This document shows positions 6,493 through 60,130 of a DNA stretch of 64,000 bases, piece by piece. Under the pieces are notes generated by a model. It saw nothing but the letters and a program-made list of their open reading frames with translations. It was not told where the DNA came from and did not search any database. Within the stretch, counting starts at the first letter, position 1. Each line of letters opens with the position of its first letter. The DNA lies in the NCBI RefSeq assembly GCF_004114375.1, contig NZ_CP034692.1, forward strand, positions 2,108,001 through 2,172,000, given 5' to 3'. This stretch comes from Halorubrum sp. BOL3-1. Lineage in GTDB: Archaea > Halobacteriota > Halobacteria > Halobacteriales > Haloferacaceae. The position numbers were made by a program, and so were the translations under genes.

Positions 6493-8277
6493 ATGGACGC
6501 CGACGCGGTGCGCGAGCGGGCCGGAACCCTCCCGACGGAGCCGGGGGTCTACCAGTTCCGGACGGGCGAGACGACGCTGTACGTGGGGAAGGCGCTCGAC
6601 CTCCGCGACCGGGTGCGGTCGTACGCGGACCCGCGGTCGGGCCGGATCCGCGGGATGGTCGGGCGCGCCGACCGGATCGAGTTCGCGGTCACCGACACGG
6701 AGACGCAGGCGCTCCTCCTGGAGGCGAACCTCATCAAGCGGCTCCGGCCGCGGTACAACGTTCGGCTGAAGGACGACAAGTCGTACCCCCTCGTCGCCTT
6801 CACCGACCACGAGGTGCCCCGTATCGAGGTGACCCGCGACCCCGAGGCGGGCGCGGTCGCCTACGGGCCGTTCACCGACGTGGGGCGCGTCGAGACCGTG
6901 GTGAAGGCGATCCGCGACGAGTACCGGCTACGGGGCTGTTCGGACCACAAGTACGAGGGCCGCGAGCGCCCCTGTCTCGACTACGAGATGGGTATCTGCT
7001 CGGCGCCGTGTACCGGCGAGATCGACCCCGAGGGCTACGCCGAGGACGTGGCGGCCGCCCGACGGTTCTTCGAGGGCGAGACGGGCGTCCTCGCGGACCC
7101 CCTCCGCCGCCGGATGGAGGCCGCCGCCGAGACCAACGAGTTCGAGCGCGCCGCCAACCTCCGGGACCGCCTCGAAGCCGTCGAGGCGTTCCACGGCGAG
7201 GGCGGCGAGGCCGTCAGCGACCGCTCCGACGACCGCACCGTCGACGTGCTGGCGGCCGCGATCGAGGGCGACACCGCGCGCGTGGCCCGGCTCCACAGCG
7301 AGCGCGGGCAGCTGGTCGACCGGAGCCGCCACCGGTTGGACGCGGCGGCGGTGGAGGACGCCAGCGGGGAGGAGGCGGCGGTCGACGACGAAGCGGATCC
7401 CGACGCCAACACCCCCGCCGCCGTCCTCGGCGCGTTCCTCGCGCAGTACTACGCCGAGCGGGAGTTCCCGGACGCGGTCCTCCTCGCGGAGCGCCCCGCG
7501 GACTCGGACGTGGTCGACTGGCTGGAGGGCGAGGGGGTCGCGGTCCGCGTCCCGGGCGCCGGCCGCGAGGCGAAGCTCGTCGAGCTCGCGCTGAAGAACG
7601 CCCGGAAGCGCGGCGGCCGCGACGACCCCGTCGGCGCGCTCGGTGACCGGCTCGGAGTCGGCCGCCCCGAACGGATCGAGGGGTTCGACGTGAGCCACGC
7701 GCAGGGGACGGCCGTCGTCGGCTCCGACGTGTGCTTCGTCGACGGGAGCGCGGAGACGGCCGACTACCGACGGAAGAAGCTCACCGAGCGCAACGACGAC
7801 TACGCCAACATGCGCGAGCTGGTCCGGTGGCGCGCCGAGCGCGCACTCGCCGGCGAGGACGACCGCCCCGACCCGGACCTCCTCCTGATCGACGGGGGCG
7901 AGGGGCAGCTGGGCGCCGCCCGCGACGCGCTCGCGGAGACGGGGTGGGACATGCCCGTCGTCGCGCTCGCGAAGGCCGAGGAGCTGGTCGTCACCCCGAC
8001 CGGAACCCGGCGGTGGGACGACGACGCGCCGGAGCTTCACCTCCTCCAGCGCGTGCGCGACGAGGCGCACCGCTTCGCCGTCTCCTACCACCAGACCGTC
8101 CGCGACGAGGTCAAGACGGTCCTCGACGACGTGCCGGGCGTCGGTCCCGAGACGCGCCGCCGGCTGCTCCGGCGGTTCGGCTCGGTCGAGAACGTTCGGG
8201 ACGCCTCGCGCGACGACCTCACCGACGTGGACGGCGTCGGCGACGCGACCGCCGACACGCTCCGAGAGCGGTTGTAA
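6493..8277 (+). CDS. uvrC: UvrABC excinuclease subunit C
   Basis: A 594-residue nucleotide-excision-repair endonuclease that makes the two incisions around a lesion held by UvrB. In order: GIY-YIG nuclease (PGVYQFR...[10 protein letters not shown], first 90 residues); a cysteine cluster (GCSDH...PCLDY...GICSAPC, about 140-175) of the kind implicated in an Fe-S site in UvrC proteins; the UVR domain (about 205-240) that binds UvrB; the RNase-H-like second nuclease ([12 protein letters not shown]...[13 protein letters not shown]); and tandem helix-hairpin-helix motifs at the C terminus ([20 protein letters not shown]). Full length. UvrA and UvrB are not in this window. Element A begins 10 bases after the stop. 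Confidence 0.96.
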
Positions 8278-8287
8278 ATCAGTCTGC

Positions 8288-8590
8288 GGTGGCGCGCGCC
8301 TCCGAGGCCGCATCGCGGCCGAGGAGCGCCGCGCGAGGGAGTCGCTGGGGGCCGGAGCGGAGCGAAGGCCGCCAGCGACGAGGCTGGGGAGGTGTGAGGT
8401 GCTGTGGGGTGTAGGGCGGGACTCGAAGGGGCAGTCGCGAGGGCGAAGACGCGCGACACAAGGACCGCAGGAGCGAACGCAGTGAGCGACGAGGACCGCA
8501 GCGAGCGCATCGAGTCCTCGCGACTGGGGCTTCGGCGGTCGTCTCGTCGGGAGCAACCGCGCCGTCCCGAGCGGCCGGGGCTTCGGCGGT
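8288..8590 (+). repeat. Structured intergenic repeat element, copy A
   Basis: The gap 8278-8689 between uvrC and thpR is filled by this element. In order: a GC hairpin (stem I) with GA on both sides of its inner helix; stem II, with arms GTCGCTGG (8341-8348) and CCAGCGAC (8372-8379) around a purine-rich loop; the core GACGAGGCTGGGGAGG then GTGAGG; a G-rich linker; stem III formed by CGAAG/AGTCGCGAG and CTCGCGACT/CTTCG, with GGGC facing GGGG; and a tail motif ending GGGGCTTCGGCGGT, repeated once more at 8569-8590. The same design occurs at 35858, 58981 and 60064. Arg/Ala-rich reading frames across it are not conserved and look spurious. Could be a structured RNA or a mobile element. Confidence 0.8.
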
Positions 8591-8689
8591 GTTCGTGTCG
8601 ATGTGCCAGTTATTAACGTGTACGCACAGCCAAGCCGTCGCGAGCGCCACCACCGCCGGTCTCTTTTGAATCGGGATCGTACACGTCGT

Positions 8690-9280
8690 ATGCGCGCGTT
8701 CTTCGCCGTCGACCTCCCGGAGGCCCTCGCGCCCGCCGTCGCGGACGCGCAGGCCGCGTTCGCGGACGCCTCCGGAGTCAACCCGGTCGATCCGGAGCAG
8801 GCGCACGCGACGCTGAAGTTCTGCGGCGATATCGACGACGCGACCGACGACTCCGCCGGCGGCGACGACTCTCCCGTCCTCGACGACGTGATCGCCGCCG
8901 GCGAGCGCGCGGTCGACCGCGCCGGCTTCGACCCGTTCGACTGCGAGGTCGGCGGTCTCGGCGTCTTCCCGAGCCGCGAGTACGTCTCGGTCGTCTGGAC
9001 CGGGTTCGACCGAGGCGGCGAGTCGCTCGCCGCTCTCAACGAGGCCCTCGAAGCGGAGACGACGGCGCTCGGCGTCGACCCGGCCGACCACGCGTTCACG
9101 CCGCACGTCACGCTGGCTCGGGTCGAGAACGCGACCGGCGCCGACGCGGTCCGGGACGCGCTCGACGCCGAGAAGCCGGACGTCGGAGCGTTCTCGGTCG
9201 ACGAGATCCGACTGGTGAAATCGACCCTGACCGCGTCCGGGCCGGAGTACGGCGTCGTCCGAGAGTTCGGACTCGACTGA
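8690..9280 (+). CDS. thpR: RNA 2',3'-cyclic phosphodiesterase ThpR
   Basis: A 196-residue canonical 2H phosphoesterase with both catalytic motifs: HATLKF near residue 38 and HVTLARV near residue 140. The family opens RNA 2',3'-cyclic phosphates and can ligate tRNA halves through a 2'-5' bond in vitro. The start MRAFFAVDLPE at 8690 is where family members begin; an upstream in-frame ATG at 8603 would add 29 Arg-rich residues derived from element A and is rejected. Transcription probably starts just before it (TATA-like CTTTTGAA about 28 bases upstream). It sits directly downstream of repeat A. Confidence 0.9.
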   Translation: MRAFFAVDLPEALAPAVADAQAAFADASGVNPVDPEQAHATLKFCGDIDDATDDSAGGDDSPVLDDVIAAGERAVDRAGFDPFDCEVGGLGVFPSREYVSVVWTGFDRGGESLAALNEALEAETTALGVDPADHAFTPHVTLARVENATGADAVRDALDAEKPDVGAFSVDEIRLVKSTLTASGPEYGVVREFGLD

Positions 9281-35746: not shown

Positions 35747-35857
35747 TACCGGAGTCTGGTCCCCGACGCGATTTAAACCGTCGGAACCGGGCGACGGGAG
35801 AGACGGTGAACGCGACCACGACCTCCGACGGCGACGGTGCTTATGAATGGAGATTAC

Positions 35858-36157
35858 GGTGGCGCACGCCTCCGAGGCCGCGTCGCGGCCGAGGAGCACC
35901 GCGCGAGGTCCCCGGACTACGTCCGGCTGCCAGAGAATCTTCGATTCTCGCTGGAGTCAGTCGCCGGAGCAACGCGGAGGCGAGTGACGAGGCTGGGGAG
36001 GCGTGAGGCTGCGGGTGCGGGGCGGGGCGGGGCGGGACTCGAAGGGGCGGCTGCGAGGGCGAAGACGCGCGACGCAAGGACCGCAAGGAGTGAGCACCGC
36101 GAGCGACTGAGGACCGCAGCGAGCGCATCGAGTCCTCGCGGCCGGGGCTTCGGCGGT
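35858..36157 (+). repeat. Structured intergenic repeat element, copy B
   Basis: Occupies most of the 515-base gap 35747-36261 upstream of hel308. It starts GGTGGCGCACGCC like copy A, has the same stem I (GGCCGC-GTC-GCGGCC between GA pairs), a short stem II (TCGCC/GGCGA), the core GACGAGGCTGGGGAGG (35986-36001), a very G-rich linker with repeated GGGGC, and stem III in which GGCTGCGAG pairs with CTCGCGGCC instead of AGTCGCGAG/CTCGCGACT. Between stems I and II is a 51-base insertion with two small hairpins of its own. One tail motif only. The 100 bases after it are AT-rich. Confidence 0.78.
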
Positions 36158-58939: not shown

Positions 58940-58980
58940 ACGAAACTCGGGGATCCGACCGCTTCTTTCGCTCCGTTCCA

Positions 58981-59370
58981 CGTCGGCGCGCGCCTGCGAG
59001 CGGCCGCCCCCGGCGGCCGCGAGAAGCGCGTGCGAGGGAGTCGGGCGCGATGAGGGCGACCGAAGGGAGCCCGATGGACGCGCCCGACGAGGTTGGGGAG
59101 GTGTGAGGCCCGGGGCGGTCGGGGTCGGGCGGGACTCGAAGGGGCAGTCGCGAGGCGGGCGCAGGCGACGGCAGCACCGCAGCGAGGGAGCGAAGCGACC
59201 GAGTGAGGAGCGCCCCGAGCGTGCGCCCGCCTCGCGACTGGGGCTTCGGAAGTCGCAGTCGTGTCGATCGACGATGTATCGGTAGCCACGTACGGCCGAG
59301 CGACTGGGGCTTCGACGGTCTCAGCGACGTTGTCGGTCGCGGAGTATCGAGCGACTGGGGCTTCGGTGGT
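58981..59370 (+). repeat. Structured intergenic repeat element, copy C
   Basis: Fills the 488-base gap 58940-59427. Stem I inner helix is GCGGCCGCC/GGCGGCCGC between GA pairs. Stem II has arms GTCGGGCGCG (59040-59049) and CGCGCCCGAC (59079-59088), ten perfect pairs, with a small hairpin in its loop. The core is GACGAGGTTGGGGAGG then TGTGAGG, followed by a G-rich linker and stem III (AGTCGCGAGG/CCTCGCGACT with GGGC facing GGGG). The tail motif GCGACTGGGGCTTCG occurs three times (about 59234, 59300 and 59351), with 48- and 34-base unique spacers. It points at the ferredoxin gene. Confidence 0.8.
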
Positions 59371-59427
59371 GTTAGAAGTCGAGCCGCTACCGATTCTTTA
59401 TAAGGGAACGATCGGAACTTCGACTCG

Positions 59428-59670
59428 TCACACCACCTGCTCGCCGTCGTCGTCGTACACTTCGATCGCGTCGACGGGGCACGACCGGGCCGCGAACTTC
59501 GCGTCCAGATCCTCGCCGTCGGGGACCTCGACGACGAAGAGGTCCGGCTCCTCCTCGGTGCTGCCCGCTAAGTCCGCCTTCCCGTCGTTCAGGTTCTTCT
59601 CGAAGGCGTCCCACTCGGCGACGCACTGGAACATTCCCACGCAGGTGTCGCGGTCGAACTCGACGCGCAT
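59428..59670 (-). CDS. Small ferredoxin (3Fe-4S type)
   Basis: An 80-residue ferredoxin: MRVEFDRDTCVGMFQCVAEW carries CxxxxxC, and SCPVDAIEVYDDDGEQ the final C-P. The motif lacks the full set for two clusters; the pattern fits a single 3Fe-4S (or 4Fe-4S) cluster as in ferredoxins that feed P450s. The chain is strongly acidic. ATG 59670 is chosen over an in-frame start at 59697. It stands alone between two inverted copies of the structured repeat. The window's P450 is 55 kb away, so a functional link is only a guess. Confidence 0.85.
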   Translation of the reverse strand: MRVEFDRDTCVGMFQCVAEWDAFEKNLNDGKADLAGSTEEEPDLFVVEVPDGEDLDAKFAARSCPVDAIEVYDDDGEQVV

Positions 59671-59740
59671 GGGTTCCGGTTCGGTGAGCCGGTACAAAGC
59701 GGTGACGACGCGCTACGGGTGAAACGCTCCTGCGACCGGG

Positions 59741-60064
59741 ACCACCGAAGCCCCAGCCGCTCGGCGATACGTATCTATTTGTAAATCGCCGATCGATACG
59801 CAGACCCTCGAAGCCCCAGCCGCGACGGCTCGCGCGCCTCGTTGTGCGCCTCACTCAGTCGCTCGTTTCACTCGCTCCTTCGCTGCGGTGCTTACTTCGG
59901 CGTGCTTCGCCCTCGCGACTGCCCCTTCGGATCCCACCCCGCACAGCACGGCCTCACGCCTCCCCAACCTCGTCGGCGGTCCTCCGCTTCGCTTCGGACC
60001 GCCGACTCCCTCGCGCGTGCGCCTCGCGGTCGCCGAGGGCGACCGCTCCCCGGCACGCGCCACC
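59741..60064 (-). repeat. Structured intergenic repeat element, copy D (inverted)
   Basis: Reads leftwards and fills the 460-base gap 59671-60130. Stem I inner helix is GCGGTCGCC/GGCGACCGC between GA pairs; its outer arms are GCGTGC/GCACGC. Stem II has arms GTCGGCGGTCC (60006-59996 on the other strand 59972-59982) around loop GAAGCGAAGCGGA, eleven pairs. Core GACGAGGTTGGGGAGG then CGTGAGG. Stem III pairs AGTCGCGA with TCGCGGCT, one T-G wobble. Two tail motifs (59828-59807 and 59766-59745). Faces copy C across the ferredoxin gene; its 5' end abuts the promoter of the 60131 gene. Confidence 0.8.
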
Positions 60065-60130
60065 GCGGATCGCTCAGATTCGCTCTCTCCGACCGTCCTT
60101 TTTAAGCGTCGCAGGGATCGACTCACGAGT

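Follow-up and report, generated by a model that had tools for sequence, protein, structure and literature searches.

An abundant intergenic repeat with covarying hairpins on the chromosome of Halorubrum sp. BOL3-1

In enterobacteria, the REP and BIME sequences are high-copy, intergenic palindromic repeats that favour convergent gene ends and have structure at the DNA level, and REP is mobilised by RAYT, which belongs to the Y1 family. MITEs have terminal inverted repeats matching those of a transposon, usually with a target duplication, and the double-hairpin elements of fungal mitochondrial DNA are dispersed hairpins whose arms vary yet remain complementary. Among haloarchaea, the palindrome-associated transposable elements (PATEs) of Haloquadratum walsbyi are described as non-coding and palindrome-bearing, without inverted ends or duplication (PMC3119063).

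We analysed a 64,000-nucleotide stretch of the Halorubrum sp. BOL3-1 genome (NZ_CP034692.1, positions 2,108,001 to 2,172,000), hereafter the window. It contains four copies, A to D, of a dispersed, non-coding repeat of ~254 nt (about 250), of which the hairpin at 8341-8379, stem II, is one part. From 5' to 3', the element comprises GCGGTGGCGCG, stem I, GCGAGGGA, stem II, the core GAGGNTGGGGAGGNGTGAGG, a G-rich linker, stem III and CTGGGGCTTYGGNGGT. The copies, whose ends are approximate and not fixed to a single base, and the parts of copy A are as follows (flanking genes of copy A named by Pfam; stem I from the sequence and folds).

8286-8539, plus strand: copy A, flanked by uvrC (6493-8277) and a LigT/2'-5' RNA ligase family gene (8690-9280)
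35857-36157, plus strand: copy B, with a double-hairpin module inserted between stems I and II; stem II at 35956-35988
58980-59254, plus strand: copy C; stem II at 59040-59088, core at 59089-59108
59804-60066, minus strand: copy D; stem II at 59972-60006; a small minus-strand gene (ORF 59428-59670) separates it from copy C, which it faces
8292-8334, plus strand: stem I of copy A, with imperfect outer arms at ~8292-8299/8327-8334
8300-8303/8323-8326, plus strand: next layer of stem I, CTCC/GGAG
8304-8305/8321-8322, plus strand: tandem G.A of stem I
8306-8311/8315-8320, plus strand: inner stem I, GGCCGC/GCGGCC, with triloop ATC
8341-8348/8372-8379, plus strand: stem II, GTCGCTGG/CCAGCGAC, with purine loop GGAGCGGAGCGAA
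8380-8399, plus strand: conserved 20-nt core GAGGCTGGGGAGGTGTGAGG, presumed single-stranded
8424-8534, plus strand: stem III, with base CGAAG 8424-8428/CTTCG 8530-8534 (general form CRAAG/CTTYG)
8433-8442/8516-8525, plus strand: arms of stem III, AGTCGCGAGG/CCTCGCGACT, extending inward
8473-8487, plus strand: tip of stem III, a G.A ladder reading GC-GA-AC-[GCA]-GT-GA-GC

The preliminary description had located stem II of copy A and its two arms correctly, but the helix runs further than it said, with four more pairs in folds (GGCC 8350-8353/GGCC 8367-8370) beyond a G.G mismatch. GA flanks this stem on both sides (8339-8340 and 8380-8381). The arms given for copies C (59040-59049/59079-59088) and D (60006-59996/59982-59972, minus strand) also hold. 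Copy B had been credited with a shorter TCGCC/GGCGA arm pair; its arms are in fact GTCAGTCGCC/GGCGAGTGAC (35956-35965/35979-35988), with 9 of 10 positions paired and one G.G mismatch. The statement that stem II has the same placement in all copies needs amending for copy B, in which the preceding block is GCGCGAGGTC plus the inserted double hairpin. Extra perfect hairpins occur as inserted modules (GTCGCCGGC..GCCGGCTGCC; AGAGAATCTTCGATTCTCGCT), sometimes several consecutively, both at 35857-36157 in the window and in copies L130, L129, L147 and L169. A solo 3' motif, CTGGGGCTTYGGNGGT...TTTATAA, follows many elements and is sometimes in tandem (window ~8580-8600, L134, L071).

The element begins with GCGGTGGCGCG and ends with CTTYGGNGGT on the same strand, and these termini are not inverted copies of each other; palindromes lie near both, stem I near the 5' end and stem III near the 3' end. 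We found no terminal inverted repeats. A search for target duplication was also negative, the longest string common to the 5' and 3' flanks being 5.9 within and 5.5 between copies, values that are approximate as the ends are inexact. Lacking both traits, the element is not a MITE as judged from its ends.

A pattern search of the BOL3-1 genome (3.67 Mb, 4 contigs) yielded 129 core matches with up to 3 mismatches, compared with 3 for the reversed pattern, and blastn placed copy A at at least 43 sites. Approximately 125 copies lie on the 3.37-Mb chromosome; the other contigs have none against ~10 expected, all matches listed being chromosomal. The repeat is present in 34 of 34 same-genus genomes, at 16-184 copies each. 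Among 146 genomes of the order, it is common in this genus (g1, Halorubrum by its named matches) and in a second genus, g17 (0-93 copies), less frequent in a few others and missing from most. Named matches outside the genus include Halorussus litoreus and Halobellus captivus, and the likeness of g17 copies to that of H. litoreus suggests that g17 is Halorussus. In the g17-type copies shown, the 5' part is present together with stem II and the core, but the Halorubrum-type stem III is not. This reduced version is represented by L297-L307 (mostly from g17 and Halorussus-like) and by L182, and its stem II frequently takes the form of a G.A ladder, e.g. AC-GA-CC-GA-AC-GAA-GT-GA-GG-GA-GT. The core sequence was absent from the literature searched.

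PATEs as described for Haloquadratum (PMC3119063) share several properties with the present element: both are short, haloarchaeal, non-coding and palindromic, without terminal inverted repeats or target duplication, and both have heterogeneous copies and reduced 'terminal' versions. The same source relates PATE ends to IS605-type transposons, and the present element is likened to PATEs by the other features only; conversely, the text consulted mentions neither three covarying helices nor a G.A ladder for PATEs. Unlike PATEs, the copies are rarely found off the chromosome, and a Y1 (IS200/IS605) transposase went undetected in several copy-rich genomes. This was the case for 7 of 39 genomes of the genus, six of which have 75-130 copies (G002, G004, G005, G016, G019 and G027). 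The BOL3-1 genome has one Y1_Tnp, and by eye copy number shows no correlation with Y1. IS200/IS605 TnpA as a required resident partner is thus unsupported by its distribution. By description, the element also resembles REP/BIME sequences in being intergenic, high-copy, palindromic and biased to convergent ends, and possibly in acting through structure at the level of DNA; it differs in its ~254-nt length, its three main hairpins and its archaeal host, with no RAYT partner found and no visible sequence relation. Likened again by description, the fungal mitochondrial double-hairpin elements share the variable complementary arms but differ in genomes and layout.

The genetic context was read from stretches around the copies and a few control stretches. 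None of 218 copies falls inside a gene predicted by a home-made gene caller; convergent genes flank 88 of them and divergent genes 24, and sense and antisense orientations to the neighbours are both common. Copies less than 3 kb apart (window 58980-60066 and pairs elsewhere in genomes) are ordered '+ then -' in 17 cases, '- then +' in 1, '++' in 4 and '--' in 3, so that their 3' ends typically face each other across a gene. The genes enclosed are ordinary, coding for ferredoxin-like proteins, MsrA, Thi4, CysS and others, named by the look of the proteins. Within the chromosome, the copies listed leave a 380-kb zone free at 2.93-3.31 Mb (G000:C3:2929032-3309361), which has a chance below 0.001 under uniform spacing; its sampled GC content is 0.49-0.68, compared with 0.687 at copy-bearing loci. 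A second stretch without listed copies spans 845963-1041889 (196 kb; GC 0.59-0.65). Both stretches are probably acquired DNA. In genome G022, all 64 copies are on the main contig and none on the others. Searches of viral contigs and phages returned no copies, and those of plasmids almost none.

Such a distribution could be expected of a chromosomal site with a function in nucleoid organisation, replication or repair, bound by a host protein in the manner of BIME/REP arrays, rather than of a selfish repeat. The confinement to the high-GC chromosome, with the mostly lower-GC 380-kb zone and the other contigs devoid of copies, and the facing arrangement of close pairs are consistent with this proposal. 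However, genomes of a single genus range from 0 to 93 copies and most genera of the order have none, the same locus can be occupied or empty depending on the species, and the confinement could equally reflect the age of the DNA. We consider a host function of this kind very improbable.

Variable but complementary arms, the central claim of the preliminary description, were confirmed on a larger set of 48 distinct stem-II sequences, all 35 nt long and aligned without gaps. Standard pairs make up 97.4% of pair cells; reassigning arms at random between copies lowers the share to 85.3 +/- 0.7%, and sliding one arm against the other to 19-50%. Both-sided changes occur at 8 stem-II pairs, and the covariation score is 0.380, relative to 0.152 +/- 0.010 for shuffled and at most 0.096 for slid arms. 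Over 55 distinct arm pairs, pairing is 7.25 of 9 within copies and 5.84 +/- 0.14 between copies.

Shared ancestry was taken into account with a tree of 162 copies, on which the changes of each column were re-placed at random and same-branch co-changes were counted for each pair. Stem II has 68 such co-changes for 13.7 expected, with p<=0.01 in 7 of 9 pairs; a larger alignment therefore does covary above the phylogenetic background in this pair-specific test. Stem III gives 107 for 41.5 expected and its base 21 for 3.1. The position-2 pair of that base is mostly G-C in the copies of BOL3-1 and mostly A-T in its relatives, with intermediates almost absent. Stem I yields 18 for 9.8 expected; it is mostly invariant, and its outer arms, being nearly so, are uninformative on covariation. 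In the slid-partner control over all stems, 60 co-changes were counted for 49.7 expected. A more severe null pooled over all column pairs, run before the pair-specific one, leaves E<0.05 in 2 of 36 pairs and in no other pair, and hence individual pairs are not all significant. The pair-specific null is better matched to the variability of each pair, and both nulls depend on a tree that was derived from the very columns under test and whose copies probably recombine. The covariation signal is solid for helices and moderate for single pairs. As paired arms change together well beyond shared ancestry, the fold adopted by one strand of the DNA, or by its RNA, appears to be important.

Ladders are formed at the tip of stem III and in many loops of stem II: 2-bp rungs alternate with GA/GA mismatches and a triloop closes the end. 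With rung pairing as the sole guide to the frame, 104 stem III copies have a full ladder, 73% of them with GNA loops, and none of 240 shuffled segments does. In a first test, whose frames were partly chosen by the GNA loop, the inner rung is complementary in 0.80 of copies compared with 0.33 +/- 0.04 after permutation. That rung is mostly GC/GC, AC/GT or GT/AC. The rungs covary while the tandem G.A mismatches stay conserved. The loops of distinct perfect hairpins comprise 189 triloops, 63 tetraloops and 9 pentaloops; among the tetraloops listed, UUCG is absent and GNRA accounts for at most a few. DNA mini-hairpins with GNA loops are described as extraordinarily stable, and GCGAAGC is reported to melt at 78 C (PMC4686876). 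GC-GNA-GC loops of this type recur in stems II and III; the mini-hairpins are, however, an oligonucleotide structural motif and not an element family, and RNA can form similar pairs.

On the purine-rich strand, inferred changes lead to G.T in 102 cases and to A.C in 59; among distinct helices the counts are 100 and 52 (p=1.2e-4, an optimistic value given shared ancestry). If only double-stranded DNA mattered, the two mismatches should be equally frequent; one strand is therefore probably read single-stranded. This asymmetry and the conserved tandem-G.A ladder favour a single-strand fold as the target of selection, probably that of the purine-rich strand.

The same asymmetry would be explained if the element were transcribed, either as a separate small RNA or as part of untranslated regions, and its helices selected as RNA, in which G.U is tolerated above A.C. 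The RNA fold of copy A has a z of -2.48, with 1 of 200 shuffles equally stable, relative to -1.56 for the DNA fold, and a TATA-like box near -14 precedes 93 of 208 copies as opposed to 2 of 208 in a control stretch. From the usual archaeal promoter spacing, however, such a box would put the start at about +15, within the left arm of stem I, and although enriched it was rejected as an own promoter on account of this misfit. A T5 run past the 3' end is found in only 5 of 199 copies and orientation to neighbouring genes has no clear bias; these checks, with that of the box, revealed no evident independent transcription unit. The dominance of triloops over RNA-type tetraloops also argues against RNA. 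G.T makes up just 2.6% of pairs; the genome's RNase P RNA, taken as a control, contains 4 G.U among 64 pairs, too few to separate the two. Rfam 15 returned no match in the window at the gathering score, and the best hit in this region at permissive thresholds was chrB-a, with 18.2 bits for 43.9 required. RNA action is not supported as first put forward; RNA function is possible and unproved, a structured RNA being a real though rather doubtful explanation, and single-stranded DNA seems somewhat more likely as the folded form. Enrichment of TTTATAA-like boxes is seen upstream of the element near -14 and -45, and at ~+40 after CTGGGG; they are commoner in relatives (about 60%) than in BOL3-1 (about 20%).

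Comparisons between species document the turnover of the element. At the uvrC-LigT locus, it is present, reduced or absent depending on the species. The orthologous copies L188 and L218 are stable, with few substitutions and one G.T pair in stem III of each, while L175 and L219 have nearly identical upstream flanks (few differences in ~70 bases) and stems that have changed yet remain paired. Exchange of hairpins between copies would be the simplest explanation of the latter pattern, and such swapping is probably behind much of the complete replacement of arms from one copy to another. Accordingly, the proposal that multiple compensatory changes betray selection for base-pairing stands in part: co-changes exceed the tree background and a single-strand fold is favoured, but the both-sided changes are not all independent compensatory events. 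In rare copies the loop or inner stem is inverted relative to the others (L055 and L142 in stem II, L247 in stem III), and these look like products of recombination between arms.

Template switching during replication (quasipalindrome correction) would give both-sided changes without any selection. The near-perfect Watson-Crick arms with few intermediates, the fast change at orthologous sites and the appearance of extra perfect hairpins all fit this mutational mechanism. It would nevertheless convert the tandem G.A of the ladder into pairs, yet G.A is conserved and the rungs covary; it predicts no asymmetry between G.T and A.C; and distant genera retain the unpaired core. As the only cause it appears improbable.

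The reading that we tentatively prefer is that of a non-autonomous, palindrome-bearing dispersed repeat of PATE/REP type that is maintained because of its fold as a single strand and undergoes reshuffling from copy to copy; we regard it as a good possibility without being confident of it. In its favour, the analysis has shown high copy number, intergenic siting, covariation of stems II and III, mismatch asymmetry and the ladder, and found no terminal inverted repeats or duplication. The purine-rich strand, as given here, would work as a folded single strand, and a putative trans-acting factor would recognise its shape together with the unpaired GAGGNTGGGGAGGNGTGAGG core, the mode of recognition proposed for PATEs and REP sequences. 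This factor may have spread the element or may copy it still; placed copies would then be inherited vertically in the chromosome, and recombination would exchange hairpins between copies, both arms moving together. The mobility part of this reading is based on sequence comparison between species, transposition not having been seen directly. The near-confinement to chromosomes is odd for an active transposable element, and the lack of detectable Y1 in six copy-rich genomes and a G.T excess of only ~2:1 also count against it. Rather unlikely, but worth naming, is an undescribed genus-wide class of chromosomal elements that would function through a strand-specific single-strand fold, made up of exchangeable hairpins and tandem-G.A/GNA ladders, and would have a dedicated partner reading shape and not sequence. 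Such elements would in principle resemble integron attC sites or IS200/IS605 ends, here in archaea and without a known enzyme.

The claim of covariation holds: the element is real, abundant and covarying. About 100 copies per genome across an archaeal genus covary above a tree-based background, in a repeat found in neither Rfam nor the literature searched. Whether the fold acts as RNA or as single-stranded DNA, compensatory changes alone are no proof of RNA function. If it acts as RNA, the copies would constitute a large unrecognised haloarchaeal RNA family. If it acts as single-stranded DNA, they would represent thousands of natural experiments on the hairpins accepted by a DNA-processing enzyme.
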